From positions 682,001-746,000 of the forward strand of contig NZ_JAUCGR010000002.1 in assembly GCF_030362815.1 (NCBI RefSeq): DNA of 64,000 nt. Reading direction: 5' to 3'. A model generated the notes under the pieces. That model was not told where the DNA came from, searched no databases, and worked only from the letters and a program-made list of their open reading frames with translations. Source of the stretch: Cellulomonas edaphi. Lineage in GTDB: Bacteria > Actinomycetota > Actinomycetes > Actinomycetales > Cellulomonadaceae. The translations under genes and the position numbers were made by a program. Shown piece by piece: positions 28,353-60,444 of the stretch. Position 1 is the stretch's first letter, and each line of letters opens with the position of its first letter.

Positions 28353-28468
28353 GCGCGGAAGCCTATGCCGACGAGGCGCGGCAGCGTCTAGCGCGCCGGC
28401 GCCGTCCCGGGTCATGATGTCTCGACGCCGAGCCCGGGAGACACCATGCCCCACCTGCAGGAAGACTG

Positions 28469-29071
28469 ATGGCGATCGTCTCGCGCGGCTTCCGCGGCAG
28501 GCGCGTCGCCGATCCCCGACTCCCGCCGGGCCAGTACCTCGAGCGCGGGTTCCCCGTGCTGTCGGCGGGGCCCACGCCACGGGCCGACCTCGCCTCCTGG
28601 ACGTTCTCCATCACCGCGCAGGGCACCACGCGCGCGTCCTGGACCTGGGCGGAGCTGCAGGCGCTGCCGGCCGAGGACATCGTCAAGGACATCCACTGCG
28701 TGACCAAGTGGACCAAGCTCGACAGCGTGTGGCGCGGCGTCAGCCTCGACACCCTGCTCGACGCCGTCGAGATCGCCCCCGAGGAGCAGTTCGCCCTCGC
28801 GCACTGCGACGGCGGGTACACCACCAACGTCCCGCTCGCGGACCTGCGGGGCGGGCAGGCGTGGATCGCCTACGGGTACGACGGAGCGCCCCTGCGCCCC
28901 GAGCACGGCGGTCCGGCACGGCTGCTGATCCCGCACCTGTACTTCTGGAAGTCCGCCAAGTGGGTGCGCCGCATCGACCTGGGCACCACGGACACGCAGG
29001 GCTTCTGGGAGCAGCTCGGGTATCACGCCTACGGCGACCCGTGGAAGGAACAGCGGTACTGGGGTGACTGA
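28469..29071 (+). CDS. Molybdopterin-dependent oxidoreductase, sulfite-oxidase-like
   Basis: A 200-residue protein made of one oxidoreductase molybdopterin-binding domain. DIHCVTKWTKLDSVWRGVSLDTLL contains the Cys expected to ligate Mo. AHCDGGYTTNVPLADLRGGQAWIAYGYDGAPLRPEHGGPARLLIPHLYFWKSAKWVRRIDL is the strongly conserved cofactor pocket. It resembles the YuiH/MsrP-like short form without a dimerisation domain. There is no Tat signal, so it is probably cytoplasmic. Its stop overlaps the next gene, a flavin reductase, by 8 nt, which suggests the two form an electron-transfer pair. Substrate unknown; S- or N-oxide reduction is possible. Confidence 0.9.
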   Translation: MAIVSRGFRGRRVADPRLPPGQYLERGFPVLSAGPTPRADLASWTFSITAQGTTRASWTWAELQALPAEDIVKDIHCVTKWTKLDSVWRGVSLDTLLDAVEIAPEEQFALAHCDGGYTTNVPLADLRGGQAWIAYGYDGAPLRPEHGGPARLLIPHLYFWKSAKWVRRIDLGTTDTQGFWEQLGYHAYGDPWKEQRYWGD

Positions 29072-29864
29072 GGCTCCCGACGAGGTCGCCGACCTGGTCC
29101 CCGACGAGGTCCCGCACGCCCTCCCCTGGCGCGTCGCCACGCTCGTGCACCGGCGCCAGGAGACCCCCACCGCGGCGACGCTCGAGCTCGACGTCCCCGG
29201 CTGGCGGGGCGCGCTCGCCGGCCAGCACGTCGACGTCCGACTGACCGCCGAGGACGGGTACTCGGCGCAGCGCTCCTACTCGCTCGCGTCGCCCGCGTCG
29301 ATGGGCCTGCCGGTGGCGGGTGCGGGCACCCCGCGCATCGCGCTCACGGTGCAGGTGGTCGACGACGGCGAGGTCTCGCCGTACCTGACCGACGACCTCG
29401 GGATCGGCGACCAGATCGAGCTGCGCGGGCCCATCGGGAGCTGGTTCGTGTGGCACGCGACAGACCCTCGGCCCGTGCAGCTGGTCGCGGGCGGCTCGGG
29501 CCTGGTGCCGCTCATGTCCATCGCGCGCACGCACGCCGCCTGCGGCTCGTCGGCGCCGCTGCGGCTGCTCGTCTCCGTGCGCTCGCCCCAGGACGCCCTC
29601 TACAGCGAGGAGCTGGACCTGCTGGCGCCGGGCGTGCAGGTCACGCGCGTGTGGACCCGCTCGGGGCCGCCCGCCTGGTCGGGACCGGTGGGCCGCATCG
29701 ACGCCGACCTGCTCCGGGCCACGTGCCTGCCGCCCGACCAGAGCCCACGCGTGTACGTGTGCGGCCCCACCGCGTTCGTCGAGGCCGTCGCCGACGCGCT
29801 CGTCGACCTCGGGCACGACCCCGAGCTCATCCGCACCGAGCGCTTCGGCCCCACCGGGACCTGA
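29064..29864 (+). CDS. Ferredoxin-NADP reductase-like flavin oxidoreductase
   Basis: A 266-residue FAD- and NAD(P)H-binding reductase. The FAD domain contains QRSYSLASPA (RxYS motif); the nucleotide domain contains VQLVAGGSGLVPLMSIAR and ends VYVCGPTAFVEAVADALVDLGHDPELIRTERFGPTG. It lacks the C-terminal 2Fe-2S domain present in many class IA oxygenase reductases. It overlaps the molybdopterin oxidoreductase gene and probably feeds electrons from NAD(P)H to it (inference from gene order). Confidence 0.9.
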   Translation: MTEAPDEVADLVPDEVPHALPWRVATLVHRRQETPTAATLELDVPGWRGALAGQHVDVRLTAEDGYSAQRSYSLASPASMGLPVAGAGTPRIALTVQVVDDGEVSPYLTDDLGIGDQIELRGPIGSWFVWHATDPRPVQLVAGGSGLVPLMSIARTHAACGSSAPLRLLVSVRSPQDALYSEELDLLAPGVQVTRVWTRSGPPAWSGPVGRIDADLLRATCLPPDQSPRVYVCGPTAFVEAVADALVDLGHDPELIRTERFGPTGT

Positions 29865-29889
29865 CGCCGTCGCCGGCCGCGCGGGCATG

Positions 29890-29925
29890 CCGGCGAGGCC
29901 GAAGGAGCTCCTTCAACCTCGCCGG
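29890..29925. terminator. Bidirectional terminator between reductase gene and ppc
   Basis: Outer arms CCGGCGAGG and CCTCGCCGG enclose the perfect palindrome GAAGGAGCTCCTTC. It lies between two convergent stops (29864 and 29939), so it can stop transcription from both sides. Confidence 0.75.
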
Positions 29926-29938
29926 TCGGTCTGCGCGG

Positions 29939-32614
29939 TCAGCCGGTGTTCTGGACGCCGGCGGCGACGCCGTTCACGCTCAGCAGCAGCAGCCGGCGCA
30001 GGTCGTCCGCCTGCTCGGGTGCGTCGCCCGTGCGCAGGCCGCGCAGCGCGCGCAGCTGGAGCAGCGAGAGCGCGTCGACGTAGGGGCTGCGCAGCTGGAC
30101 CGCGCGGCCCAGGATCCGCTTGCGCGACAGCACGGCGTCGGAGTCGGTGATGGCCAGCACCCAGCGCCGCGTCAGGGCCATCTCCTCGAGCACCTGGCTC
30201 GCCAGGTCGTCCCGGTCACCGAGTGCCAGGTAGCGAGCCGCGATGCGCTCGTCGGTCTTGGCGAGCGACATCTCGACGTTGTCGATCATGGTCGCGAACA
30301 AGGGCCACTGGGCGTACGCCTCGCGCAGCTCGGCCAGGTCGTTGACCGACTCGAGCGCGGTGCCCAGGCCGTACCAGCCGGCCAGGTTGATGCGGGCCTG
30401 CGACCACGAGAACACCCACGGGATGGCGCGCAGGTCGTCGAGCGACGAGACGGACAGCCCGCGGCGCGCCGGTCGTGAGCCGATCGGCAGGAGGCCGATC
30501 TCCTCGAGCGGCGTGACCTCCGCGAACCACTGCGGGAAGCCCTCGGCCCGGACCAGGCCGTGGAAGCGGGCCCGCGAGGCCTCGTCCAGGCGGGCTGCCA
30601 GCGCCGCGAACCGCTCGGTCGCGGCGGCGTTGCGCTCCTCGACCGACGGCGTGCCGGCCAGCAGCGTCGCGGCCACCACCTGCTCGATGTGCCGCGCGGC
30701 GATCACCGGGTCGCCGTAGCGGGCGAAGATGACCTCGCCCTGCTCGGTGAGCTTGAACCGGCCGTCCACCGAGCCCGGGGGCTGCGCGAGCACCGCACGG
30801 TTCGCGGGGCCGCCCCCGCGCCCGAGCGCGCCGCCGCGGCCGTGGAAGAGCGTGAGCGCGATGTCGTGCCGGTGCGCCCACTCCGTGATGCGCGCCTGCG
30901 CCGCGTCGAGCGCGAGCGTCGCCGAGACCGGCCCGACGTCCTTGGAGGAGTCGGAGTAGCCGAGCATGACCTCGATGCGACGACCGTTGGCGGCGAGGCG
31001 CTGCTGGACTGCCTCGAGCTCGAGCGACTTCTCCAGGATGTCGACGCTCGCGTCGAGGTCCGCGAAGGTCTCGAACAGCGGGATCGCGTCGATCACGGGG
31101 CGCTCGTCGGAGCCCGCGAAGGCGTAGTCGGCGAGCTGGTACACCGCGGCCAGGTGCTCGGCCGACTGCGTGAACGAGACGATGTAGCGGCGGGCGGCGC
31201 GCGGCCCGAAACGGCGCTGCACGTGACCCAGGGCCCGGAACGTGTCGAGCACCTCGACGGTCATCGGCTCGAGGACACCGTCCACGCCGTTCTTCTCCAG
31301 GTCGGCGAGAGCCGCCTCGTGCACCTGCGAGTGCTGCCGCACCTCGAGCTCGGCGAGGTGGAAGCCGAACGAGGCCACCTGCCACAGCAGGCGCTGCACG
31401 TCGCCGTACGCGGAGCGCTTGGCTCCGGCGGCGTCGAGCGAGCGCTGCACCACCTGGAGGTCGGCCTCGAGGGCGTCGGGGCCGGGGTACGCGAGGTCCG
31501 CGTCCCGCCGGCGCGTGGCGGCGATGCGCTCGGCGACCACGAGGATCACGCGGCGGTGCGGCTCGTTCGGCGCGTCCGCGGCGACCCGCGCCGTGATCTC
31601 GTCGGAGAGCGCCCGCTGGCGCTGCCACAGGCTGCTGAGCTCGGCCGAGGCCGGCGTGCCGTCGCCGTCGAGCGTGAGCCCCTCGGCGGCACGCCGCGCC
31701 GACGCCTCGAGCGCGACGAGCACCTGCTCGGAGAGCAGCAGCGCCGCGGCGCGCGTCACCTCTGCGGTGACGTTCGGGTTGCCGTCGCGGTCCCCGCCGA
31801 TCCACGTGCCGAGGCGCGCGAAGGGGCGCACCAGCGGAGCCTGGGTGCCCGCGGCGTCGCCCAGCAACCAGTCGTCGAGCCGGCGGTAGACCGCGGGCAG
31901 GACATCGGCGAGGGTCGACTCGAACACCGCGAGCACCGTGCGGACCTCGTCGAGCACCGTCGGCTTGGCCTGGCGCAGCGGCGCGGTGCGCCACAGCGTC
32001 TCGATCTCGGACAGCAGGCGACGCTCGTTCTCGACCAGCGACATGCCGCCGATGTTGCGCGCGTCGCGCTCACCGAGGAGCTCCGCGATCCGGCGGATGG
32101 AGCGGGACACCGCCCGACGGCGCGCCTCCGTGGGGTGCGCCGTCAGGACGGGACGGAACTCGAGCTCCTGGAGCCGGCGCCGCGCCTCGTCGTCGCCCAG
32201 CTCGTGCCGGACCTTGACCACCGCGGCAGGCAGCGAGTCGTCGGGAGCGAGGGTGTGCGGCTCGAGGTTCGCCTCGCGGTCCCGCAGGACGCGGATGCGG
32301 TGGTACTCCTCGGCGGTGTTCGCCAGGTGGAAGTAGCACGTGAACGCGCGCGCCACCTGCTCCGCCCGCTCGAGCGAGAAGCTCGCCACGAGCGCCTCCG
32401 CCTGCGAGAGCGCGTCGCTGGTCGGGTCGGTGTGCGCGTGGATCGCGAGCTCGCGCAGGCGCTCGACGTCGGCGAGGAGGTCCTCCCCGCCCGCCTCGGC
32501 CAGCACACGGCCCAGGAACTCGCCCAGCACGCGCACGTCGTTGCGCAGGGGCTCCGGCAGGTCGTGGCTGGCGCGGACCCGAGGGAAGTCGCGCGGAGGA
32601 AGAGGTGCTGTCAC
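29939..32614 (-). CDS. ppc: Phosphoenolpyruvate carboxylase
   Basis: An 891-residue anaplerotic enzyme that converts PEP and bicarbonate to oxaloacetate. Seen: VLTAHPTEARRRAVSRSIRRI with the catalytic His; GSWIGGDRDGNPNVT (here GTWIGGDRDGNPNVT); VMLGYSDSSKDVGPVSA, the second signature; FHGRGGALGRGGGPANRAVLAQPPGSV, the mobile loop; and the C-terminal NG-type end, here VAAGVQNTG. The length is normal. GTG at 32614 follows a TAGTTT hexamer (32626-32621) by 6 nt, so it is leaderless. Confidence 0.97.
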   Translation of the reverse strand: MTAPLPPRDFPRVRASHDLPEPLRNDVRVLGEFLGRVLAEAGGEDLLADVERLRELAIHAHTDPTSDALSQAEALVASFSLERAEQVARAFTCYFHLANTAEEYHRIRVLRDREANLEPHTLAPDDSLPAAVVKVRHELGDDEARRRLQELEFRPVLTAHPTEARRRAVSRSIRRIAELLGERDARNIGGMSLVENERRLLSEIETLWRTAPLRQAKPTVLDEVRTVLAVFESTLADVLPAVYRRLDDWLLGDAAGTQAPLVRPFARLGTWIGGDRDGNPNVTAEVTRAAALLLSEQVLVALEASARRAAEGLTLDGDGTPASAELSSLWQRQRALSDEITARVAADAPNEPHRRVILVVAERIAATRRRDADLAYPGPDALEADLQVVQRSLDAAGAKRSAYGDVQRLLWQVASFGFHLAELEVRQHSQVHEAALADLEKNGVDGVLEPMTVEVLDTFRALGHVQRRFGPRAARRYIVSFTQSAEHLAAVYQLADYAFAGSDERPVIDAIPLFETFADLDASVDILEKSLELEAVQQRLAANGRRIEVMLGYSDSSKDVGPVSATLALDAAQARITEWAHRHDIALTLFHGRGGALGRGGGPANRAVLAQPPGSVDGRFKLTEQGEVIFARYGDPVIAARHIEQVVAATLLAGTPSVEERNAAATERFAALAARLDEASRARFHGLVRAEGFPQWFAEVTPLEEIGLLPIGSRPARRGLSVSSLDDLRAIPWVFSWSQARINLAGWYGLGTALESVNDLAELREAYAQWPLFATMIDNVEMSLAKTDERIAARYLALGDRDDLASQVLEEMALTRRWVLAITDSDAVLSRKRILGRAVQLRSPYVDALSLLQLRALRGLRTGDAPEQADDLRRLLLLSVNGVAAGVQNTG

Positions 32615-43293: not shown

Positions 43294-46200
43294 CTAGCGC
43301 CGGACGTGCACCGCGATCGTCGAGGACGTCCTGCCGGTCACGGTCGAGGGCGAGCTCGGCAGGAACTTCGCCTTGACCCGGATGGAGGAGGAGTACCGAT
43401 GGGGCAACGTCACGGCGACCTTGCCCTTCGCGCCGGCGTACAGCGTCACGGTCTTCGCCACCCGGCCCCCCACGTACACCACGACCTTGCCCGTCGGGGC
43501 GCGCCCGTTCGAGAGCGTCGCGACGGCGACGTGCACCGTGGGCCGCGTCCGCTTGGTGAACGCCCGCGCCGAGACGGACACCTTGGACGTGGTCGCCTTC
43601 ACGACCGTGAACACGGCCGCCGACCTCGGTGACGTCACCGTGGTCTTGCCCGTCACGATGGTCGCGGTGAGGCCCTTGTAGCTGCCCACCGCCAGGGTGG
43701 CGGACAACCGAGCGGTCGCGGTGTAGGCCGTGCCCACCTTGACGACCGAGGCGGTGCCGAGCACCTTCGAGCCCGCCTTGAAGGTGACCTTCCCGCTCGT
43801 CGCGTTCTTCACCGTCGTCGTGATGGTGGCGAGCCGGGCCGTGCTGGAGCCGTAGACCTGCGAGGCCTTGCTCAGCACGGGGGCCGAGAGCGACACCTTG
43901 GCCGGGACCGGCGGGACCGGCCGGGCCGTGACCGTCACCGTGACCGCCGCCGACGTGCTGGCGCGGTACCAGCTGTCCCCGGCGTAGACCGCCGTCAACG
44001 AGTGGGCCCCCAGAGCCAGACCCGTGACGGTGAAGCTCGCCGACGAGGCTGCTGCGTCCACCGTGGCGCTGCCGAGCGACGTGGCACCGTCGTAGAGCGT
44101 GACGGTGCCCGTCGCGCCCGCCGTGACACCCACGGAGACCGGGAGGACGTCGCCCTGGGTCACCGTCGCGGGCACGCCCAGGAAGGCCGTCTCCGAGGCC
44201 TTCATGACCTTGACCACCACGACGTCGGCGGTCGCAGGCACGCGCGTCGTGGCACCGACCGCACTGACCCGGTAGGTGCCGTCCGGCGTGGTCCGCGGGA
44301 TCGTGACCGCGGTGGTCACCGAGCCGTCGCCGCCGGCGGTCGCCTTCCAGGACGCCGTGAGCGCGGGGGCGCCGGTCCAGGAGAAGGTCACGACCTCGGA
44401 CGGAGCGAAGCCGGAACCGGACAGCACGACCCCGTCCTTGACGCCCGGGTCGACCTGCGCCGGCGCGGTGAGCACCGTGTGGGCCTTGACCGTGACCGTC
44501 ACGGGAGCAGACGTGCTCGTCGCGTACCAGCTGTCGCCCGCGTAGACGGCCCGGAGAGCGTGAGCGCCGACGCTCAGCGACGAGACGTCGAACGAGGCGG
44601 CCGATCCCGCACCCAGCGTGGACGAACCGAGGGACGTCGCCCCGTCGAACAGCTCGACCGACCCCGTCGCTCCGTCGGTCACGGCGACCGTGACGGGAAC
44701 GACCTGGCCGACGGTGACCGTCGTCGGTGCGTGGAGCGAGGTCTGCGAGGGCCTCATCACCTTCGCCACCACCACGTCGGTGGTGGCAGGGACCTCGGAG
44801 ATCGCGCCGACGGCACGGAGCTCGTAGGTGCCGTCACCGGTGAGCCGCGGGAACGTCACGGTGGTCGCCACGTGCCCGTCGTCGTCTGCGACGACCGTCC
44901 ACGGCACGGTCGGAGCCGGGTCGTGCGTCCACGAGAAGGTCACGGTCTCGCCCGGCTCGAAGCCCGAGCCGGACAGAGCCGCGAGCACGCCCGGGTCCAC
45001 CGACTCCGGAGCGTTCAGCGCCGTGCGGTAGGCCGCGTGCAGGCTCTCGTACGCCGAGGCGAGGTTCGCCAGCCCCGACTGGTACGCCTCGTAGCCGCTG
45101 TCGCCGTCGAGCGCCTTCGCCGTCCGGAGCGCCCCCTGCAGCGTCGCCCAGGACGCGGGGCTGTAGTCCGCGTCGCTCAGGGCTTCGACGGTCGTGACGA
45201 GCTCGGCGACCTGCTTGACGACCTTCCAGCGGAGCTGGCCGGCCGAGAGGGTCAGGTCACGCGTCGCCTTCGTGACGTCCGCCGCCGTGGCGGAGGGCGC
45301 CGTCAGCAGCGCGCGGCCCGCGGCCAGCGCGCGCGTGTAGACCGCGAACTCCGCCGCGACGTAGCGGTCACCGTAGTCCTCGAGGTTCGAGCTGGCGGCG
45401 ATGGCGGCACGCAGTGCGGCCTTGTCCGCGCCGTAGCCCAGCGAGAACCAGTCGAGGTTCCCGACGGACGGCTGGTCCGCTGTCGGCGTGCTCAGCAGCG
45501 TGACGTAGAGCGTGTGCGTGCCGGTGAGCTCCGACGGCAGCACGACGCTGGTCGTCCGGTACGTGCCCCATGTGGATCCCGTGGGGGCCAGGTCGACGGT
45601 GACGAACGGCTCGCCCTCCAAGGAGTCCACGTGCACCGCGAGCCTGCCCTTGCTGACCGCGGTGGAGGGCGCGTCGTAACGCACGTTCAGCGACGTGGCG
45701 TACTTCGACCCCAGCTTGACCCCGGGGTACCGGACCCAGCTGCCGTCGACGCCGCCCGCGAGCTGGCCACCGACGCTTCCCGTCTCGGTCCTGAGCGCGC
45801 TGCCGGAGTAGTCCACCCCGTCGACGAGACCCGCGGCCGCGTCGTCGAGGTTGCCGTACCCGGAACGGATCGACTCGAACTGCACCGTCTTCTCGGTGGG
45901 CACGGCCGTCGTCGAGTCGCCGAACTGGAACCACGCGAAGTTGCCGACGTACGGGGCCGACTGGGTCGTGTTCACCGGGCTCATCCGGAACACGATGTAG
46001 ACGTCCTGCGTCCCCGTGAACACCGCCGGGTTCACGCTGAGCGTGCGGGACTGGTAGTGGCCCCAGCCCGTCCCGGTGGTCGGCAGCGTGCCCGACGAGG
46101 CGACGGTCGGACCCGTCGCGCTGCCCAGCCGGATGTCGAACGACGTGCCCGCCTGCGACTTGTCGGTCGGCTTGTCGTAGCTGTACGTGAACGTGTCCGC

Positions 46201-49200
46201 CCCGTTGGGCCCGAACTGCACCGCCCCGTACTTGATCCACTCCTCGTTGTGGGTGTTGCCGAAGTTGGTGTAGTTCGGCGCCGCTCCGTCGCGACCGACG
46301 TTCGGGCCGACGGTCATCACGTTGACCGGCGTGAGCTTGGTGAAGGCGAACTGCTCGTCACCGCCACCGGTCGCCACGGGCTGGAACTGGACGTAGTCGA
46401 TGTTCGCGACCCACGCCTTGTCGGCGCTGCCCCGGAACACCAGGTAGACGTCGTTGACGCCCGCCAGCGCCGCGACCTCGCCGGCGGTGAACGTGTGCTT
46501 GGCCTGTGCGAACGTCGTCCACGCGCCCGTCGTCGGGAGATCGACGGTGGTGACCAGCGGTCCGGTCGCCGAACCGGTGCGGATCTCGACCTTCGCGCTG
46601 CCCGAGGCCGAACCGGGGTTGTGCGCGTAGCTGACCTGGACCGACTGCAGCGCAGCATCGGTGAAGTCGAGACCGCGGTAGGCGATCCACGAGTCCGGGG
46701 AGACCCCCGCGAGCACCGTGCCCGTCCCGCCGCTCTCGGTCTTGAGCGAGCCACCCGACCATGCGTCGTAGGCCTCACCCTGCAGCACGCGGTAGCCGCC
46801 CTCGCCGATCGTGAGCCCGTCGAGCGCGGACCGGAGGTTGACCAGCGCCTGGGTCAGCACGAACTCCGAGGCGTCCGCGTCGGCCAGGACCGTCCTGGCG
46901 CTCGCCACCGCCGTCGACAGCGCGGTGTACGAGGCGGCGGAGTAGCTCCCCGCACCGATGAGACGGGCGTCGTCGTACAGCGCCTTCAGGTCGGCGCGCG
47001 TCGTGGAGGCGGGCGTCAGCGTGAACGGCTCGAACGACGAGGTGCCCGGACCGGAGACCTGGGCCGCCGCGACCCCTGAGAGGGCGGCGTCGGACAGCCG
47101 CAGGAAGAACCGCGTGACCGAGGTGCTGGTCGGCCGGCCCGTGAAGGCGACCCGGGCCGTGGTGGCGCCCGTGCGCGTGACGACGGCCGTGACGCCGTGG
47201 TCCAGGCTGGGGAACGTGATCGATCCGGCCGGGATCGTGCCGGCGAAGGTTGCCCCGCCGGTGAGCGTGAGGTCGACGGTCCGGTCGACCGTGCCGTCGC
47301 CCGTGACGGCGAGCGCCGTCGTGCTCGGCGTGATGCCGTACCCCGTGAAGCGGACCTTGAGCGCGAGCTCCCGGTCCTGCGCGCTCGGCACGGTGCCGGT
47401 GAAGGCACCCTCGGCGAGCGTCACCACGAGGCCGTCGGTCGAGTCGTCGAGCTGGTGCTGGTCGGCCTTGCCGGTGAGCGTCAGGCTCAGCGTGCTCGCG
47501 CCCGTGACGACGGCCTTGACCGCGAGTCCCTCTGGCAGCCCGGAGGCGGTGACCTCGGAGGTCACGTCCGCACCGATCTCGCCGTCGAACGTCGCGCCCG
47601 TCACCGACACGGTGATCGCGTTGCCGATCGAGCCGTCGTTCGCGTCGGACTCGACGAACGCCTGCGTCGCCGTGGCTACGGCGCTCGACCGGTCGTAGAC
47701 CGAGCTCGGGACCTCGTCGCTCATCGAGTACGCCATGGGGCTGTCGACGCCCCAGCTGGAGGGCGTGCTGCCCATGTCGAAGCGCACCGTGCCGCCGGCC
47801 ATGAGCTCGTCGTACGTGAGCCACGTGCGGTGCAGCGGGCTGCCGTTGAGCGTCGCGCCCTGGATGTAGAGGTTGCTCGCGTCGGTGCCGTCCGCCTCGA
47901 TGACGAAGTCCGTGCCGCCCGGGTAGTGGAGCGTGACCTTCTCGAAGACCGGCGAGCCGATCTGGAACGAGTCCGCGCCCGAGGTGACGGGGAACAGACC
48001 CAGGGCGCCCGAGACGAACACCGAGGACATCGTCGCCGCGTCGTTGTCCATGGTCTGCAGGAAGCCCTTGGTGGCGTTCTGGTACGTCATGAGCTTCTGG
48101 GGGGTGGTGTACTCCCCCTTGCCGTTGAGCCCCTGCGGGCCGCTGCTCGAGTCCTTCGCGGCGGCATAGCGCTGGCAGGTCGGCGTCGTGAGGATGCTGC
48201 GCGCCCAGTACTGCGTGCGGCTGGGCGCGCCCACGTAGTTGAACAGGTACGGCGACTGCAGGTCGATCTCGTTGGAGTTGAGGTGCAGCATGCGCGTGCA
48301 GTCCTCGGGCGCCTGCTCGCCGTAGAGGTAGCTCAGCGCCGTCCGGGCGCCGGCCTTGCCGCCCATGAGCTCGATCATGCCGCCCATGTCCTGGGCGTCG
48401 TACCAGTTGTACTGCCAGAGCGTGCCCTGGTAGAGGCCCGCTCCGGGCGCCTCGAACACCTCGGGGTCGACGTTCGCCGTCCAGCCGCTCGCGGTCCTCG
48501 GCATGAGCAGACCGACGTTCTCCACGCCGGTACCGGAGGCAAGTGCCTGCGGGTTGGTGGTCAGGGCCGCCTTGTTGAACAGGTTGACGTAGTTCGTCGA
48601 GCGCTTGAGGAACTTCGCCGCGTCGGCGCTCTTGCCGAGCTTCGTGGCGATGACCGACATGGCCCAGTCGTCGTACGCGGTGCCGACCGTGTCGGCGACC
48701 GAGCCCGAGATGAACCCGAGCGCCTCGTTGGTGGAGCTGTAGCCGCCGTTCGAGGTCTTGACGAGCGACGGATACGCCGCCTCCAGGCCCTCGAGCTCGG
48801 CCCCCTTGTTCAGCGCGTCCGCGATGACGACCGCGGACCGCTCCCACCGCACGGTCGGGACGGACTGCATGAGGCTGCCCACGGAGCTCGCGCCGCTGTT
48901 CGTCATGCGGGCATACAGGTCGACGAGCGACTGCGCGATGTCCCGGTACACGTCCGGGTAGATCGCGGCGATCGAGGAGTACTTGTGGAAGTCGTCCCAC
49001 AGCGACCACGAGTCGTAGTGCGTGTAGCCGTCGGCCTCGTAGATCTTGCCGTCGACACCGCGGTAGGTCCCATCGGTCGACGTGGCGTTGAGCGGCGAGC
49101 CGTTCATGCGGAAGAGGTGCGTGTAGAACTGCGTCTTCAGGTCGCCGGTGGGGTCGTCGTCGGCACCCTCGGAGATCTCGACCGCGCCGAGCGCCGCGTT

Positions 49201-50175
49201 CCACTCCGCCGTCGCGGCGGCGCGGACGTCGCCGAAGCTCTTCGCACCGATCTCGGCGCCCTGGTCACGGGCCGCCTGCGCCGAGCTGATGGGCGAGAGC
49301 GTCACCTTCAGGCCGACGTGGTCGCCCGCGGCGACGTCGAACGACAGGATGGCGCCGATGTCGGTGCCGTCCTGCGCCTTCGTGGCCGAGCTCAGACCCG
49401 CCGCGCCCCAGGTGCTGACCGCCGAGGTCGGCACCGTGGTCTCGGCGTAGTAGTAGAGCGTCGAGGCCGAGTTGTAGAAGTAGCTCTTCAGCGAGCCGGA
49501 CAGGGTCGTCCTGCCGTCGGCGGTCCTGCCGACCGCGAGCGTCGCGCCCTGGCGCGTGCCGAAGTTGTTGGCCAGGTCGACGACCAGCGAGCCCGTGCCC
49601 GCGCTGCCGAACGTGTAGTCCTCGACGCCGGTCCGCGTGTCGGCCGTGACCCGGGCGTCGATCGTCTTGCCCGCCTCGGTGAGGCCCACCCGGTAGTAGC
49701 CGGGCGCCGCCGACTCGTTGCTGTGCGAGTACGCCTTGTCGTAGCTGCTCGTGCTCGGTCGTGCCGTGTAGGTCTGGTAGGTCGGCGAGACCAGGAAGTC
49801 GCCGCCGGCGCCGGCCGCGCCGACGCCGTCGAGCGTGACGGACGTGAAGCCGCGCAGGGACGAGGACGCGTAGTCGTAGCCGACGTGGTTGCGGGGGTTG
49901 GTCAGCGGGGTGATCTTCGCGAGCCCGTGTGGCGTGAAGGCACCCGGACCGTCCTGGCCGAAGTCGCCCTCGGTGCCGATGAACGGGTTGACGAACTGGG
50001 TGTAGTCGGCGGCCGGCGCAGGCTCGGCCGCGGAAGCCGGAGCGGCGAGAGGGACCGCGAGCGCCGACGCGACGAGCGCGAAGGTGGTCGTCAGGGAGAC
50101 CCGGCGGGCGCGGGGGGCTCGTGCCCTGGACGGGGAGCGATCAGGGGCCGGATCACGGTGCGACATCGTTGTCAT
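43294..50175 (-). CDS. Secreted multidomain GH92 alpha-mannosidase family protein, Gln at acid position
   Basis: About 2,293 residues. Signal peptide at 1-50 (TTTFALVASALAVPLAAPASA). GH92 module at about 55-815: QFVNPFIGTEGDFGQDGPGAFTPHGLAKITPLT, SLWDDFHKYSSIAAIYPD, LYQGTLWQYNWYDAQDMGGMIELMGG, TMDNDAATMSSVFVSGALGLFPV (DND, base region) and GSPVFEKV. A beta-rich region and FIVAR helices follow, then three CBM6-like beta-sandwich modules (about 1125-1270, 1273-1420, 1428-1580), more FIVAR helices, Ig-like repeats (about 1728-2080) and a beta C-terminal domain. GH92 enzymes are calcium-dependent inverting exo-alpha-mannosidases. The usual general acid Glu (EGN-WQY) is Gln583 here (YQGTLWQY), which from memory matches mannose-1-phospho-6-mannose hydrolase CcGH92_5 of Cellulosimicrobium. 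ATG at 50175 is leaderless. Confidence 0.9.
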   Translation of the reverse strand: MTTMSHRDPAPDRSPSRARAPRARRVSLTTTFALVASALAVPLAAPASAAEPAPAADYTQFVNPFIGTEGDFGQDGPGAFTPHGLAKITPLTNPRNHVGYDYASSSLRGFTSVTLDGVGAAGAGGDFLVSPTYQTYTARPSTSSYDKAYSHSNESAAPGYYRVGLTEAGKTIDARVTADTRTGVEDYTFGSAGTGSLVVDLANNFGTRQGATLAVGRTADGRTTLSGSLKSYFYNSASTLYYYAETTVPTSAVSTWGAAGLSSATKAQDGTDIGAILSFDVAAGDHVGLKVTLSPISSAQAARDQGAEIGAKSFGDVRAAATAEWNAALGAVEISEGADDDPTGDLKTQFYTHLFRMNGSPLNATSTDGTYRGVDGKIYEADGYTHYDSWSLWDDFHKYSSIAAIYPDVYRDIAQSLVDLYARMTNSGASSVGSLMQSVPTVRWERSAVVIADALNKGAELEGLEAAYPSLVKTSNGGYSSTNEALGFISGSVADTVGTAYDDWAMSVIATKLGKSADAAKFLKRSTNYVNLFNKAALTTNPQALASGTGVENVGLLMPRTASGWTANVDPEVFEAPGAGLYQGTLWQYNWYDAQDMGGMIELMGGKAGARTALSYLYGEQAPEDCTRMLHLNSNEIDLQSPYLFNYVGAPSRTQYWARSILTTPTCQRYAAAKDSSSGPQGLNGKGEYTTPQKLMTYQNATKGFLQTMDNDAATMSSVFVSGALGLFPVTSGADSFQIGSPVFEKVTLHYPGGTDFVIEADGTDASNLYIQGATLNGSPLHRTWLTYDELMAGGTVRFDMGSTPSSWGVDSPMAYSMSDEVPSSVYDRSSAVATATQAFVESDANDGSIGNAITVSVTGATFDGEIGADVTSEVTASGLPEGLAVKAVVTGASTLSLTLTGKADQHQLDDSTDGLVVTLAEGAFTGTVPSAQDRELALKVRFTGYGITPSTTALAVTGDGTVDRTVDLTLTGGATFAGTIPAGSITFPSLDHGVTAVVTRTGATTARVAFTGRPTSTSVTRFFLRLSDAALSGVAAAQVSGPGTSSFEPFTLTPASTTRADLKALYDDARLIGAGSYSAASYTALSTAVASARTVLADADASEFVLTQALVNLRSALDGLTIGEGGYRVLQGEAYDAWSGGSLKTESGGTGTVLAGVSPDSWIAYRGLDFTDAALQSVQVSYAHNPGSASGSAKVEIRTGSATGPLVTTVDLPTTGAWTTFAQAKHTFTAGEVAALAGVNDVYLVFRGSADKAWVANIDYVQFQPVATGGGDEQFAFTKLTPVNVMTVGPNVGRDGAAPNYTNFGNTHNEEWIKYGAVQFGPNGADTFTYSYDKPTDKSQAGTSFDIRLGSATGPTVASSGTLPTTGTGWGHYQSRTLSVNPAVFTGTQDVYIVFRMSPVNTTQSAPYVGNFAWFQFGDSTTAVPTEKTVQFESIRSGYGNLDDAAAGLVDGVDYSGSALRTETGSVGGQLAGGVDGSWVRYPGVKLGSKYATSLNVRYDAPSTAVSKGRLAVHVDSLEGEPFVTVDLAPTGSTWGTYRTTSVVLPSELTGTHTLYVTLLSTPTADQPSVGNLDWFSLGYGADKAALRAAIAASSNLEDYGDRYVAAEFAVYTRALAAGRALLTAPSATAADVTKATRDLTLSAGQLRWKVVKQVAELVTTVEALSDADYSPASWATLQGALRTAKALDGDSGYEAYQSGLANLASAYESLHAAYRTALNAPESVDPGVLAALSGSGFEPGETVTFSWTHDPAPTVPWTVVADDDGHVATTVTFPRLTGDGTYELRAVGAISEVPATTDVVVAKVMRPSQTSLHAPTTVTVGQVVPVTVAVTDGATGSVELFDGATSLGSSTLGAGSAASFDVSSLSVGAHALRAVYAGDSWYATSTSAPVTVTVKAHTVLTAPAQVDPGVKDGVVLSGSGFAPSEVVTFSWTGAPALTASWKATAGGDGSVTTAVTIPRTTPDGTYRVSAVGATTRVPATADVVVVKVMKASETAFLGVPATVTQGDVLPVSVGVTAGATGTVTLYDGATSLGSATVDAAASSASFTVTGLALGAHSLTAVYAGDSWYRASTSAAVTVTVTARPVPPVPAKVSLSAPVLSKASQVYGSSTARLATITTTVKNATSGKVTFKAGSKVLGTASVVKVGTAYTATARLSATLAVGSYKGLTATIVTGKTTVTSPRSAAVFTVVKATTSKVSVSARAFTKRTRPTVHVAVATLSNGRAPTGKVVVYVGGRVAKTVTLYAGAKGKVAVTLPHRYSSSIRVKAKFLPSSPSTVTGRTSSTIAVHVRR

Positions 50176-50182
50176 GGCGAGG

Positions 50183-50211
50183 AAGGTACGCACCGGAACG
50201 GGGCCGGTCAA
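50183..50211 (-). promoter_or_regulatory. Promoter of the GH92 gene, leaderless
   Basis: TTGACC (50211-50206), a 17-bp spacer and TACCTT (50188-50183) precede the ATG at 50175 by 7 nt. No ribosome binding site is present. This decides the start at 50175 over the ATG nine bases further in. Confidence 0.6.
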
Positions 50212-50350
50212 CGTCGGCATCCCGTATGGACGGAATGTGCCGGTTCGATGTCTTCCGCCCTGCGGCGCTCGTCCGCGGGGACGAGACCGCGCCCCGCCGG
50301 TGGAGGTCTCCACCGGCAGGGCACGGATCACTCGGGTCGTCCGTCAGCGC

Positions 50351-55457: not shown

Positions 55458-56129
55458 ATGCGACGACTGCTCCGACCCCTCATGCTCGCCACGACCGCGG
55501 TCGTGGGGCTGCTCGCCGTGACCGCTGCGGCACCCGCCCAGCCGAGCGCCGAGGACAGCGCCTGGCTCGTCGAGGCGCACCAGCGCAACCTGGCGGAGAT
55601 CGCCAGCGGCGCGGCCGCCGTGGAGCTGGCCAGCGCACCGGCCGTGCGCGAGCTGGGCCGCATGGTCGAGGCGGACCACCGCACGCTCGACACCGACCTG
55701 CAGTCCGTCGCGACCGAGCTCGCGGTGGTGCTGCCCAGCGAGCCGCGAGAGGACCAGCGCACCTCGCTCGCGGCACTGCGCGCGATCCGCACCGAGGAGT
55801 TCGACCGGGCCTGGGTCGCGTCGCAGATCACCGCGCACCGCGCGGCGTTGGAAGCCGCCTCCGCACGGGCCGCGAGCGGAGGGGACCCCGCCGTCGTCGC
55901 GCTCGCGGACGCTGCGGCGCCCGTGGTGCAGCACCATCTGCGTGCGCTCGAGGCCGCCGCGGACGCCCCGGACTTCCAGGAGGGTGGCGAGACGCCGGAC
56001 AACGGCGCATCGACGTGGCCGACCGCAGCGGTGATCGCCGTCGTGATCGTCGTGGTCGGCGTGGTGGCCTACGTCGTGGCGCGCAGGACCGGGCGACTGC
56101 GTCCTCGCGGGCGGGACGGGCGAGCCTGA
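55458..56129 (+). CDS. DUF4142 secreted protein with C-terminal membrane anchor
   Basis: A 223-residue protein. Signal peptide at 1-28 (LMLATTAVVGLLAVTAAAPA). The DUF4142 helical bundle follows (EDSAWLVEAHQRNLAEIASGAAAVELASAPAVRELGRMVEADHRTLDTDLQSVATEL; FDRAWVASQITAHRAALEAAS), a ferritin-like fold with His/Glu positions that resemble metal sites. A C-terminal transmembrane helix (AAVIAVVIVVVGVVAYVV) and an Arg-rich tail hold it at the cell surface, unlike many purely secreted members. ATG at 55458 behind GGGAGG. Role unknown; the family is often stress-linked. Confidence 0.85.
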   Translation: MRRLLRPLMLATTAVVGLLAVTAAAPAQPSAEDSAWLVEAHQRNLAEIASGAAAVELASAPAVRELGRMVEADHRTLDTDLQSVATELAVVLPSEPREDQRTSLAALRAIRTEEFDRAWVASQITAHRAALEAASARAASGGDPAVVALADAAAPVVQHHLRALEAAADAPDFQEGGETPDNGASTWPTAAVIAVVIVVVGVVAYVVARRTGRLRPRGRDGRA

Positions 56130-56252: not shown

Positions 56253-57212
56253 ATGCATACGCCCACCGAGCCCCAGGTCGGCCGCTTCCGCTACAACCAG
56301 CCGGACGGCCGCTGGTGGTGGTCCGACGAGATGTTCCAGATCCACGGCATGGAGCCGGGTGCCGTGCTCCCCACGCTGGACGTCCTCGAACGGCACGTCC
56401 ACCCCGACGACCGGGACAGGGTACGAACCGCCCTCGATTCGCCCGCCCAGCCAGGCGAGCCCGCCGCTGTCCAGTATCGGCTGCTGCAGCTGACCGGCGA
56501 CGAGCACGTCGTCACGATGACGGCAGGGCCGTCCCTCGGCGACGAGCAGATCGAGGGCGTCGTGGTCGACGTCACGCGCGCGATGCAGGACGTGATCGCC
56601 AGTCGCGTGAACGCCGAGCTGAACCAGGCGCTGTCCTCGCACGCCACCATCGACCAGGCCAAGGGCATCTTCATGCTCGGGTACGGCATCGACGAGGCTG
56701 CGGCGTTCGAGCTGCTGCGCTGGAGCTCGCAGCAGCGCAACGTGCGGCTGCTGACGCTCGCCGAGCGCGTGATCTCCGCCGTCGGGGCGTCGGGGGGCCT
56801 GGGCCCCGAGATGCGGCAGCGTTTGGACGACTACTTCTTCTCGAGCATCTTCGCCGACCGGCCGCTGTCGGCCGCACCGGGATCGCAGCTCGCGACGCGC
56901 TTCTCCACGAGCGGCGACGCACCGACGCTGAGCGTCGCGGGCCCGGTCGACCTGGCCACCGCCGGAGAGTTCGCCGCCGCCCTCACCGAGCTCGCTCGCC
57001 GTGCCCCGGACGCCGGGACGGTGGTCGTCGACCTGCGCGGCGCCGACCACGTCGGCTCTGCCGGGGTGTCCGCGCTCAGCGCGGCCCAGCGGCGGTGCCG
57101 TGCCAACGGTGTCAGGATGCGGGTAGTGCTAGGAGCGGAGTCCCGTCTCGCCGTCGCCGGACACGGGCTCGACGTTCTGGAGGACGAGCCCAGCGCGGTC
57201 AGATCGCGGTGA
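56253..57212 (+). CDS. PAS-ANTAR-STAS signalling protein
   Basis: A 319-residue, three-domain regulator. PAS fold at about 10-110 (WWWSDEMFQIHGMEPG, HPDDRDRV). ANTAR RNA-binding helices at about 115-175 (NQALSSHATIDQAKGIFMLGYGIDEAAAFELLRWSSQQRNVRLLTLAERV, with the Ala/Lys/Gly AKG motif). STAS at about 222-318 (VAGPVDLATAGEFAAAL, VVVDLRGADHVGSAGVSAL), where Ser269 is in the phosphorylation position of RsbV-type anti-anti-sigma proteins. ANTAR domains bind paired hairpins and prevent termination. Here RNA binding could be gated by the STAS phosphorylation state and a PAS ligand (inference). ATG at 56253 has GGAGG upstream. It lies 17 bp before the PP2C-HATPase-STAS gene. Confidence 0.88.
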   Translation: MHTPTEPQVGRFRYNQPDGRWWWSDEMFQIHGMEPGAVLPTLDVLERHVHPDDRDRVRTALDSPAQPGEPAAVQYRLLQLTGDEHVVTMTAGPSLGDEQIEGVVVDVTRAMQDVIASRVNAELNQALSSHATIDQAKGIFMLGYGIDEAAAFELLRWSSQQRNVRLLTLAERVISAVGASGGLGPEMRQRLDDYFFSSIFADRPLSAAPGSQLATRFSTSGDAPTLSVAGPVDLATAGEFAAALTELARRAPDAGTVVVDLRGADHVGSAGVSALSAAQRRCRANGVRMRVVLGAESRLAVAGHGLDVLEDEPSAVRSR

Positions 57213-57229
57213 CGACCTAGGAGCCCGCG

Positions 57230-59098
57230 ATGAGCGACGGCGAAGCAACGGAGATGACGCTCCGCGCCGCGTCCGCCGCTGACGGTGCATGGGTCGTGCT
57301 GCGAGGTGGGGACCTGCGCCTCGTGCACGCGAGCGCGCAGGCCCGTGCCCTGTTCGGGCCGGACCTCCAGCTCGACGCCCCGCTCCCGGAGCAGCGCCGC
57401 GGGCTCGGTGCGGCCCACGGGTGGTTGGCCGCGGCATTCGCCGGTTCTCACGAGCAACCCGACCCGCCGGTCGTGCCCGTGGGAGACGGCGCGAACGGTC
57501 GCTGGTTCCAGATCGAAGCCAGTCCCCAGCGCGACGACGCGGGCCAGGTGCACGGGCTCCTGGTGCGTGCCACCGACGTGACCGCGCTGGTCGGTGAAGC
57601 GCGCTCCGCCCGGCGCCAGGCGGAGGCCGCGGACGAGCGGGCCAGGCGGGCGACCGACACCGTCGAGAGCCTCAGCACGACGTTGCTCCCGGCGACCCTG
57701 CCACTGCTCGCGCGCGTCGACGTCGCCGCGCACTCGCTCGTGCTCGACCCCTCCGGCATCGCGGGTGGCGACTGGTACGACGCCGAGGTGCTCCCCGGAG
57801 GGCTGCTCGCGCTCACCGTCGGGGACGCCGTGGGCCACGGGATCGCTGCGGCGGCGGCGATGGCGCGGCTCCGGACGGTCGCGGCGGCAGCGCTGTCGAG
57901 CGGCGCGAGCCTGCTGTCCACGCTCAGCACGGTGGATTCCTACGCGAGGCGAGAGGCGTCCGCGTTCGCGGCGACCGCGTGCGTCGCGATCCTCGACCCG
58001 GCGACCGGCGATCTCAGGTACGTGACGCGCGGCCACCCGTCACCGGTGGTCGTCGGTGCCGACGGCGTCCGCCAGCTGGCGTCCACGTCCGGAGGCCCGC
58101 TGGGCACCGGAACGCCGGGCAGCGAGGGTCGCGACCGCGTGCAGGACGGCGAGCTGCTCCTGATGTTCACGGACGGGTTGGTGCAGGCGGGCTCCCGGGC
58201 GCTGGGGCCCGGTGTCGCCGCGCTCGAGCGGGCGGCGCTGGACGCCGTGCGCGAGGCGTTTGGGTCCGGGGACCTCGCCGAGGTCGGCGGCACGATCGTC
58301 GCGAGGATGGGCGAGGGCGGATTCGCGGACGACGTCACGCTCCTGGCCGTGCTGCGACGTCCCGCTCCCGCTCCCCTGGCCGTGTCCTTCCCGGCGCGGG
58401 CGGGCACGCTCGCGCAGGCGCGGGCCGCGGTGGACGCGTGGTGCCGCCGCCTCGGCCAGGACGACGACGGCCGACGCCGCGTGGTGCTGGGGGTGAGCGA
58501 GGCCGTCGCCAACTCCGTCGAGCACGGGTACCGCGCTCGCGAGGACGGCCACGTGGAGGTGACCGGGAGGGTGCGCGACGACGGCGCCGTCGAGATCTGC
58601 GTGGCGGACACCGGCGCCTGGCGCGAGCCCACGGCGGAGCCGGGCGGTCGAGGGCGCGGCTTCGCCATGATGGCGTCGGTGGGTCTGGAGGTCGACGTGC
58701 AGGCCACCGGTGAGGGTACGCGCGTCACGATCGCGCACCCGCTCCGTCGCGCCGTCGTGGCGTCCGCCGAGGTGCCGCCGCCCGGCACGCGCACCGGCGA
58801 CGGCGTGGAGGTGACCTCCGACCCGCAGTCCGCCCACGTGGTGCGAGCCGACGGACCGATCGCCGACAGTGCGGCGGCCGCGCAGGTGGAGGCCGAGGTG
58901 CTCAGGATGTCGCGGAACGGCTGGGTACCGGTGACGATCGACCTGTCCGCGGTCACCCACCTGGGCAGCGCGGGCGTCCGGGTGCTCGAGATGCTGGTCC
59001 GCACGGTGGCCGGCCTCCGGGTGGTCGCGCCGTCCGGATCACCGGCCGACCAGACGCTCGTGGTCGCCGGGATGGCGCACGATCACGCGGTGGACTGA
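57230..59098 (+). CDS. PAS-PP2C(SpoIIE)-HATPase-STAS fusion (RsbU-RsbW-RsbV in one chain)
   Basis: A 622-residue protein. PAS-like domain at about 15-120, coiled coil at 122-150, PP2C/SpoIIE phosphatase at 155-375 (GGDWYD at 179-184, VGDAVGHG, FTDGL, FADDVTLL, the metal-site residues). An RsbW-like HATPase at 385-505 carries the N-box SEAVANSVEHGYR, G1 VADTGAW and G2 GRGRGFAMM. The STAS domain at 525-620 has THLGSAGVRV with Ser580 at the phosphorylation site. In partner switching a kinase inactivates a STAS protein and a phosphatase reactivates it; all three activities are combined here. ATG at 57230 with AGGAG upstream. It is cotranscribed with the PAS-ANTAR-STAS gene, whose STAS domain is a likely target. 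Confidence 0.92.
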   Translation: MSDGEATEMTLRAASAADGAWVVLRGGDLRLVHASAQARALFGPDLQLDAPLPEQRRGLGAAHGWLAAAFAGSHEQPDPPVVPVGDGANGRWFQIEASPQRDDAGQVHGLLVRATDVTALVGEARSARRQAEAADERARRATDTVESLSTTLLPATLPLLARVDVAAHSLVLDPSGIAGGDWYDAEVLPGGLLALTVGDAVGHGIAAAAAMARLRTVAAAALSSGASLLSTLSTVDSYARREASAFAATACVAILDPATGDLRYVTRGHPSPVVVGADGVRQLASTSGGPLGTGTPGSEGRDRVQDGELLLMFTDGLVQAGSRALGPGVAALERAALDAVREAFGSGDLAEVGGTIVARMGEGGFADDVTLLAVLRRPAPAPLAVSFPARAGTLAQARAAVDAWCRRLGQDDDGRRRVVLGVSEAVANSVEHGYRAREDGHVEVTGRVRDDGAVEICVADTGAWREPTAEPGGRGRGFAMMASVGLEVDVQATGEGTRVTIAHPLRRAVVASAEVPPPGTRTGDGVEVTSDPQSAHVVRADGPIADSAAAAQVEAEVLRMSRNGWVPVTIDLSAVTHLGSAGVRVLEMLVRTVAGLRVVAPSGSPADQTLVVAGMAHDHAVD

Positions 59099-59235: not shown

Positions 59236-60427
59236 ATGCGTGTCCTGGGCATCAACGCGATCTACCACGACCCTTCCGCGGCCCTGGTCGTCGACGGCCA
59301 CGTCGTCGCCGCGGCCGAGGAGGAACGCTTCAGCCGGCGCAAGCACGGCAAGCGGCCGGTCCCCTTCTCCGCCTGGGAGCTGCCCGAGCAGGCGATGCGC
59401 TGGTGCCTCGACCACGCGGGCCTGAGCCCGCGCGACGTCGACGCGGTGGCCTACGGGTGGGACCCGGCGCTGGCCAAGAACGCCGAGGACCTGGGCCTCG
59501 ACGACCCGTGGGACCACCTGCGGACCACGTACGCGGAGCAGGTGCCGGGCTTCCTCGCGACGGCCCTGCCCGGCATCGACCCGTCCGTCGTGCGCTACGT
59601 CCCCCACCACGTCGCGCACGCCGCGTCGGCCGCGCTCGCGTCGCCCTTCGACGAGAGCAGCGTCCTGGTCCTGGACGGGCGCGGCGAGCGCGCCTCCCAC
59701 CTGGCCGGCCACTACTCCGGGGGCCGGCTCGACGTGCTCTCCACCCAGGAACTCCCCCACTCCCTGGGTCTGCTGTACGAGTCGCTGACCGCCCACCTGG
59801 GCTTCCTGCGGTCGAGCGACGAGTACAAGGTGATGGCGCTCGCGTCCTACGGCCGCCCGCGCTTCCTCGACGACCTGCGCGACCTGGTGTACGCGACCGA
59901 CGACGGCGGGTTCGTCGCGGAGGTGCCCGACTGGGACCGCTGGGTCCCGGCTCGCGTAGACGACGGGACGTGGGGCGGGGAGCACGCCGACCTCGCGTGC
60001 TCCGTCCAAGCGCGGCTCGAGGAGGTCCTGGTGGACCTCGCGCGGTGGCTCCACGAGCGGACGGGCGACCGCGCCCTGACGATGGCCGGTGGCATCGCCC
60101 TGAACTGCGTCGCCAACTCGCGCATCTGGCGGGACAGCGGCTTCGAGACCATGTGGGTGCCGCCCGTCGCGCATCTCGCGACCGCGCTGGGCACACGCTC
60201 GGTCCCCCTCTTCGGCCCGGTCTCCCCAGCGCAGTGGGGGCCTGCCGTGGACCCCGAGCGCCACCACGTGCTCTGGAACGGCTCCCGCGCCGTCGGAGAC
60301 CCGCACGGTGACGAGCTCGACCCCGCGCTGGCCTCGATCAGCGTCGACCAGGTGTGGTCGGCCGTGGCGGCGGCGCTGACCGCCGACGAGCCGGGCGAGG
60401 AGCCGGCCGGCGAGGAGCCGGCCGGTG

Positions 60428-60444
<17 letters not shown>
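59236..60444 (+). CDS. Carbamoyltransferase, C-terminally truncated
   Basis: A 402-residue protein of the NodU/CmcH O-carbamoyltransferase family. MRVLGINAIYHDPSAALVVDGHVVAAAEEERFSRRKHGKRPVPFSAWELP is the family N-terminus. YVPHHVAHAASAALASPFDESSVLVLDGRGE, SLGLLYESLTAHLGFLRSSDEYKVMALASYG and MAGGIALNCVANSRI follow. Full-length members are about 570 residues, with a Carbam_trans_C domain for carbamoyl adenylate transfer. Here the family GDAG-type segment is altered to VAHLATALGTRSV, the C-terminal domain is absent, and the end is an EEPAGEEPAG repeat. The stop overlaps the convergent epimerase gene by 17 bp. It may be inactive. ATG at 59236 is preferred over an in-frame ATG 93 bp upstream. Confidence 0.85.
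60391..60424. repeat. 15-bp tandem repeat at the end of the carbamoyltransferase gene
   Basis: GAGGAGCCGGCCGGY occurs twice in tandem and encodes EEPAG twice, next to the point where the family's C-terminal domain is missing. Confidence 0.55.

Follow-up and report, generated by a model that had tools for sequence, protein, structure and literature searches.

Partner switching is the textbook control of general-stress sigma factors, and its antagonists of the RsfB, RsbV and SpoIIAA type are stand-alone STAS proteins, which act on sigma via an anti-sigma factor. The gene pair considered here carries a STAS domain that is fused instead to an RNA-binding-type domain. It lies in a stretch of 64,000 nucleotides from Cellulomonas edaphi (NCBI RefSeq assembly GCF_030362815.1, contig NZ_JAUCGR010000002.1, positions 682,001 to 746,000, forward strand), which was analysed as a whole and is called the window. 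The first open reading frame, ORF1, encodes a PAS-ANTAR-STAS regulator, and the second, ORF2, a PAS-PP2C-HATPase-STAS protein.

The top solved relative of ORF2 is Rv1364c of Mycobacterium tuberculosis (3ke6; expectation value (E) 7e-53, covering phosphatase and kinase), which has the same four-domain order PAS-PP2C-kinase-STAS, and in which, according to a review (PMC9138534), the kinase and phosphatase domains of the protein itself add and remove the phosphate at Ser600 of the STAS domain. Rv1364c is tied to SigF; around ORF2, instead, the neighbour that stays constant is an ANTAR-STAS protein, and the 221 family genomes searched gave no SigB/F/G match above the cut-off. The top solved relative of ORF1 by sequence is PAL, a light-gated RNA-binding protein of Nakamurella multipartita (6hmj; E 6e-34, covering PAS and ANTAR), which likewise has a C-terminal regulatory domain after a PAS-ANTAR core. 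In PAL the domain that follows PAS and ANTAR is a flavin LOV domain, for which dark autoinhibition of RNA binding has been proposed (PMC12797116, in the portion accessible), whereas ORF1 has at this place a STAS domain with a predicted phospho-serine; PAL also has Arg in the ANTAR helix where ORF1 has His. Because PAL is the top match and its LOV domain is C-terminal, ORF1 resembles a PAL core with STAS replacing LOV. EutV, NasR, AmiR and Rv1626 share the ANTAR effector domain with ORF1; their inputs are response-regulator-type or ligand-binding, whereas that of ORF1 is an RsbV-type STAS. A kinase, phosphatase and STAS logic with a non-sigma output, like that proposed for the pair, occurs in SypA/SypE and SiaABC, as far as the partly available sources describe them, and to our knowledge the end point of these switches is in no case an RNA-binding protein, of the ANTAR type or otherwise. 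A literature search, with most subscription-journal papers and supplements outside its scope, returned no paper on ANTAR together with STAS or partner switching, and Cellulomonas and STAS are both absent from the main text of a survey of ANTAR proteins in actinobacteria.

The pair comprises the following features, with the basis of each assignment in brackets:

56253..57212, + strand: ORF1, PAS-ANTAR-STAS regulator, 319 amino acids (frame, Pfam domains, fold)
56313..56528, + strand: PAS_3 domain of ORF1, residues 21-92 (Pfam, fold)
56616..56774, + strand: ANTAR domain of ORF1, residues 122-174, with model helices 108-144, 148-162 and 166-179 (Pfam, alignment, fold)
56913..57128, + strand: STAS domain of ORF1, residues 221-292 (Pfam, structure match)
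56958..56960, + strand: Thr236 codon of ORF1, aligned to RsfB Thr32 (position counted along the alignment)
57057..57059, + strand: Ser269 codon (TCT) of ORF1, predicted phospho-acceptor, aligned to RsfB Ser63 (position counted along the alignment)
57219..57223, + strand: Shine-Dalgarno-like AGGAG in the 17-base-pair (bp) gap, ahead of the ORF2 start (read by eye)
57230..59098, + strand: ORF2, PAS-PP2C(SpoIIE)-HATPase-STAS protein of Rv1364c-type architecture, 622 amino acids (Pfam, structure match)
57287..57589, + strand: PAS_4 domain of ORF2, residues 20-120 (Pfam)
57797..58351, + strand: SpoIIE/PP2C phosphatase domain of ORF2, residues 190-374, acidic motifs intact (Pfam, motifs)
58388..58732, + strand: HATPase_c_2 (RsbW/SpoIIAB-like) kinase domain of ORF2, residues 387-501, N-box and G-boxes intact (Pfam, motifs)
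58829..59044, + strand: STAS domain of ORF2, residues 534-605, with the Ser580 codon at 58967-58969 (Pfam, motif)

Pfam domains and coordinates thus confirm the arrangement given in the original prediction, two such genes on the same + strand with 17 bp between the frames; every named domain scores above its Pfam cut-off, the ANTAR domain of ORF1 reaching 63.6 bits vs a cut-off of 27.3. The prediction had also placed Ser269 at the phosphorylatable STAS position, and residue 269 is indeed the serine of the GSAGV motif in LRGADHVGSAGVSALSAAQR, aligned with Ser63 of RsfB; its counterpart in ORF2 is Ser580. ORF2 retains intact Asp motifs in the PP2C domain and an intact N-box, SEAVANSVEHGY, in the kinase. 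By domains and motifs the pair thus holds a phosphatase, an RsbW-like kinase and a STAS antagonist. We put at about an even chance the reading that the pair is one signalling unit, a partner switch with an ANTAR-protein effector replacing the sigma factor.

An AlphaFold2 model of ORF1, made from a 50-row alignment (the window ORF1, 48 database proteins and one same-genome paralogue), consists of a PAS domain at residues 8-106, a long helix at 108-144, helices at 148-162, 166-179 and 187-199, and a STAS domain at 214-310. Its mean predicted local distance difference test score (pLDDT) is 88.2 and its predicted template modelling score (pTM) 0.56, the latter leaving the interdomain arrangement uncertain. 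In a fold search with this model the 6hmj chains of PAL take ranks 1-4, and the RsfB structure 8ih8, which is also the closest solved sequence match of the ORF1 STAS domain, stands at ranks 31 and 39; by sequence and fold alike the C-terminus is STAS and not a flavin LOV domain. Where the source names the organism, the STAS-bearing homologues of ORF1 are all from Cellulomonas. A similarity search of genome contigs gave seven loci, five of them in Streptomyces and confined to the PAS-ANTAR range, one matching PAS and one STAS only. Across the phylum (396 genomes, five candidates scored in each) one listed match outside the family extends well into STAS (G359; G and L numbers are our handles for genomes and loci), and no ORF2 homologue was found in the 10 kb examined around it.

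The first line of evidence for a single unit is gene linkage. The family survey covered 221 genomes, with at most nine candidates per genome scored for ORF1 and five for ORF2, so that further copies are likely. Among the matches listed, the 19 best for PAS-ANTAR-STAS (E < 1e-128) belong to 19 genomes, and in each of these the next gene downstream, read the same way, is an ORF2 homologue, with gaps between the frames of -4 to 109 bp by our own start calls; a twentieth genome, G055, has its ORF2 homologue near a contig end. Clustering of the neighbours separates at least six gene arrangements around the pair (L105-L113; L114 and L120; L115-L119 and L124; L121, from the source genome; L122; L123), and in the stretches retrieved the pair alone is constant, a result that extends to close relatives the juxtaposition originally noticed in one sequence. 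Relatives of ORF2 with no ORF1 homologue in the stretch retrieved occur in seven genomes, and as second copies in two more cases; by our start calls most of them begin near the PP2C domain.

The second line is the conservation of the phospho-site, for which the 19 linked ORF1 copies were compared with 30 copies not beside an ORF2-type gene. Because separate kinase or SpoIIE genes lie near some of the latter, 'unlinked' is used here to mean not beside an ORF2-type fusion gene. The comparison leaves out the STAS-less second copies in L068, L082, L083, L084, L096 and L098, the copy in L104 (by a length rule), the second match in L122, and L140-L143, among which, by our gene calls, L141 and L142 stop ahead of STAS and L143 is truncated by the contig end. 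At the Ser269 column all 19 linked copies have Ser, vs 3 of the 30 unlinked ones, where the residues are Pro (13), Ala (10), Ser (3), Thr (2), Arg (1) and Lys (1); the motif GSxG[VIL] is found in 19/19 linked and 0/30 unlinked copies, and Thr236 in 19/19 vs 8/30. Counted along the alignment, Ser269 and Thr236 correspond to Ser63 and Thr32 of the 8ih8 chain, RsfB being the antagonist that the ORF1 STAS matches best by sequence, these two residues included. For RsfB of M. smegmatis, PMC7693655 reports that antagonist function is controlled by phosphorylation at Ser63 and that the substitution T32A abolishes reporter expression; the mapping used the 8ih8 chain and not the M. smegmatis protein itself.

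ORF2 itself has been maintained to different degrees along its length. Of 20 homologues (the 19 pairs and G055) all keep the kinase N-box, 19 keep the acidic motifs of PP2C, and 19 have a residue equivalent to Ser580. In G034 the PP2C motifs and the protein's own STAS domain have been lost, while the kinase and an intact ORF1 STAS (GSVGV) are retained. The ORF1 STAS domain is therefore the better-kept partner, since it persists where that of ORF2 has drifted or been lost. Taken together, the linkage, the retention of Ser269 and Thr236, the lack of SigB/F/G described below and the G034 case lend good indirect support to that part of the original prediction in which the kinase and phosphatase chain sets the phosphorylation of the ANTAR-linked STAS domain; an action of ORF2 on this domain is, as far as sequences can tell, well supported, indirectly.

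Several observations weigh against reading the pair in this way. The linked copies form two adjacent groups, of 7 and 12 rows, within a 26-row section of the tree, which also contains seven unlinked copies and in which the branch order is unresolved, and because they are related on the tree the 19 copies are not independent events. In the unlinked copies constraint is relaxed over the STAS domain as a whole (mean entropy 2.21 vs 1.06 in the linked ones), and Ser269 ranks only 22nd among the STAS columns by entropy difference. A simple rule by which the serine is kept where a kinase is linked meets exceptions on several sides: the three unlinked copies with Ser at the column are without GSxG[VIL]; of the 20 ORF2 homologues, 11 have kept GSAGV in their own STAS domain, 8 show a drifted motif and 1 is without the domain; in the 50-row alignment, where linkage is mostly unknown, Ser stands at the column in 48/50 and GSxG[VIL] in 45/50; and a SpoIIE gene without kinase or STAS matches lies a little downstream of the ORF1-type gene in G058 (Ala; L078) and in G059 (uncounted; L104). 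A counter-example is G081, where a copy that has Pro at the phospho-site adjoins a separate gene for an RsbW-like HATPase_c_2 kinase, itself adjacent to a SpoIIE gene, in the following cluster:

L096 2530-6999: PAS-ANTAR-STAS (Pro), small HATPase_c_2, PAS-GAF-SpoIIE, second PAS-ANTAR-type gene

The phospho-site pattern is accordingly to be taken as evidence of a function kept in the linked lines, and not of 19 independent events.

The main rival to an ANTAR output is a sigma factor. In the source genome (3.37 Mb in 5 contigs, 99.97% complete), for which all 20 candidates were scored, the SigB/F/G model has eight matches at E <= 0.01, all of them below the cut-off (best 133 bits vs 234), and none of the eight is inside the 64-kb window, so that the earlier remark that no sigma factor is nearby holds for this search. 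The three strongest matches read as a primary sigma factor, a WhiG-like one whose gene adjoins a recombinase gene and a FliA-like one whose gene adjoins a flagellin gene, and the remainder include shorter, ECF-like ones. Across the family, with at most 12 candidates scored per genome, SigB/F/G exceeds the cut-off in none of 221 genomes, and the three that reach E 1e-40 are of one genus and none bears the pair; in a phylum control 31 of 60 genomes exceed the cut-off and 42 reach E 1e-40.

A classical switch on another sigma factor, in which the ORF2 kinase would hold a WhiG/FliA-type or ECF sigma factor, the ORF1 STAS would be the anti-anti-sigma factor and the ANTAR domain a dimerising helix, seems unlikely to us, although several points favour it. 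WhiG/FliA-type sigma factors are above the cut-off in 18 of the 19 pair-bearing genomes, and ORF2 shares its architecture with Rv1364c, a protein that acts on SigF. In one clade, moreover, which accounts for 9 of the 19 pair loci, a zf-HC2 anti-sigma gene stands one or two places from ORF2 on the opposite strand. In 7 of these loci an ECF sigma gene comes after it, and a further gene for an ECF-type sigma factor is found several genes upstream. The zf-HC2 and ECF genes beside ORF2 also tell against an effector of the ANTAR kind:

L105 12159-13387, with counterparts in L106-L113, opposite strand to the pair and a short way downstream: zf-HC2 gene (in 9 loci), joined in 7 by an ECF sigma gene

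In G073 (L087) a gene judged FliA-like by eye is about 2.4 kb from an ORF2-like gene that has no ORF1 homologue in the stretch retrieved. Against these points, SigB/F/G, the known targets of RsbW-type kinases, stay below the cut-off; a second, FliA-like match (160-170 bits) occurs in just 11 of the 19 pair-bearing genomes; zf-HC2 anti-sigma factors belong to a different kind from RsbW; and in the other 10 pair loci, the window included, clustering of the neighbours did not show the zf-HC2 and ECF gene clusters. The ANTAR domain is also the most conserved part of linked ORF1 (mean entropy 0.50, vs 1.03 for PAS and 1.06 for STAS), and a mere helix would not need such conservation. It is possible that the zf-HC2 and ECF genes are a second regulator tied to the pair in this one clade.

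The source genome holds other partner-switch parts. A SpoIIE-HATPase protein lies between two STAS genes on contig C1 at about 27000-30020 (loci L145, L150, L154), two stand-alone STAS proteins have the classical phospho-site motifs FMDSTG and FIDSSG, one of them at the C1 cluster, and the SpoIIE matches number seven in all. These parts are likewise without a SigB/F/G target, and the lack of such sigma factors is therefore a property of the lineage and not of the pair, a further point to be set against our reading. The phosphorylatable STAS proteins among them may be co-substrates of ORF2. They also offer possible substrates for a different ordering of events, in which ORF1, with a PAS sensor of its own, would be upstream, its RsbR/RsbS-like STAS domain tuning the ORF2 kinase and phosphatase, and the real substrates would be other STAS proteins. 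We regard this ordering as improbable: the STAS and SpoIIE genes in question do not adjoin the pair, and ORF1 retains the PAL PAS-ANTAR core together with four of the six mapped residues that NasR needs for RNA binding.

These NasR residues, among them the essential Arg340 (PMC7496416, in the part available), were mapped to ORF1 via an alignment with an inferred numbering offset of 27. Lys347, the aromatic position 362 (Trp362 to Phe), Arg366 and Asn373 are retained, while Arg340 is replaced by His130 and Lys345 by Gln135, which counts against RNA binding of the described type. His130 is present in 19/19 linked and 23/30 unlinked ORF1 copies, and PAS-ANTAR relatives without STAS have Arg at this position in 10 of 11 cases. 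The change from Arg to His, seen in most of the STAS-bearing line, may, to judge from the alignment, reflect altered RNA recognition or its loss. By the same alignment AmiR, an antiterminator, has Gln at the His130 position.

A strict scan for the double hexaloop hairpins of ANTAR targets (stems of at least 4, A at loop position 1 and G at position 4) found none at 351 gene starts in 20 loci, vs 2.0 expected from shuffles, and a relaxed scan of the window and 59 loci found 15 at 693 gene starts with a total stem of at least 8, vs 14.3 expected; neither gives convincing evidence of an antitermination output. For longer total stems the relaxed scan gave 10 vs 5.7 expected (at least 9) and 6 vs 1.3 expected (at least 10). 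The shuffles keep dinucleotides roughly, and both scans covered the loci retrieved and were made without a positive control. No conserved site emerged from the relaxed scan; its 15 hits include two orthologous site pairs, L112/L106 and L108/L106, from close relatives. Three of the 15 precede ORF1-type genes (L098, L119, L123), where about 1.2 would be expected because such genes are 56 of the 690 called; they lie at differing distances and are not common to close relatives. We do not take these three hits as a signal, nor is the scan a clean negative. An Rfam scan of the window gave nothing at gathering thresholds. The leaders near these loci, in which the original prediction had proposed to look for ANTAR hairpins, thus yielded nothing convincing, and because of this 'RNA control' is a safer wording than 'antitermination'.

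The same two results, the exchange of the arginine and the dearth of hairpins near the loci examined, favour the alternative that the pair is co-inherited, with an ANTAR domain that no longer binds RNA and an output through protein-protein interaction of another kind. Such a loss is, in our estimation, improbable as well, given that the ANTAR domain is otherwise strongly conserved, that AmiR does with Gln at the corresponding position, and that PAL-type ANTARs may use other RNA shapes.

If the pair is, as we favour, a partner switch with an ANTAR effector, it would operate in the following way. The PAS domain of ORF2 would sense a signal, and the PP2C phosphatase and RsbW-like kinase would set the phosphorylation of Ser269 in ORF1 and of the protein's own Ser580. 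As long as it is unphosphorylated, the ORF1 STAS would be bound to the kinase domain of ORF2, from which phosphorylation would release it; docking and release, or the phosphate itself, might then mask or free the PAS-ANTAR core, as has been proposed for the LOV domain of PAL. A resulting shift in RNA binding would alter the expression of target transcripts, whether by antitermination or at translation. In this scheme we infer the phosphorylation of Ser269 by ORF2, the docking, the RNA binding, the direction of the switch, the target RNAs and the signal. The part of the original prediction in which the output is a switching of antitermination fares less well than that concerning phosphorylation: such an output is suggested by the ANTAR domain and by analogy with PAL, and no convincing hairpin stands near the loci.

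Other genes of the window and the unlinked paralogues may be noted briefly. Upstream of ORF1, a secreted-looking protein is encoded at 55482-56129, and a look-alike of this gene adjoins an unlinked PAS-ANTAR-STAS paralogue in G058 (L078 2000-2665; both by eye). Beyond ORF2, at 59236-60444, is a NodU/carbamoyltransferase-like gene (402 amino acids, by eye), which may be without its C-terminal part since a look-alike in G037 (L083 661-2307) has 548 amino acids. An open frame of 2,345 amino acids on the - strand at 43294-50331 is overlapped by long + strand frames. The source genome has a second PAS-ANTAR-STAS paralogue at C2:782740-783717 (+ strand; loci L004, L068), which carries Pro at the phospho-site and runs towards a PAS-ANTAR-like gene at C2:784416-784850 (- strand) whose ANTAR part looks degenerate; two PAS-ANTAR-type genes per locus are also found in G023, G036, G037, G048 and G081. 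Unlinked paralogues (for example L069, L070, L072, L074 and L076) stand back to back with a recurring gene pair, the first product of about 232 and the second of about 216-248 amino acids by our gene calls, and sensor-like by eye.

With somewhat less than an even chance, we would generalise to Cellulomonas-type bacteria as such: here an Rv1364c-type sensor would have been joined to a PAL-like PAS-ANTAR protein via an RsbV-type STAS domain, so that stress signalling controls RNA and not promoter choice. Were this so, the protein logic of partner switching could drive control after the start of transcription, in a lineage nearly without SigB/F/G, and ANTAR regulators would gain a new kind of input, a phospho-switch of the anti-sigma-antagonist type, within a compact two-gene unit.

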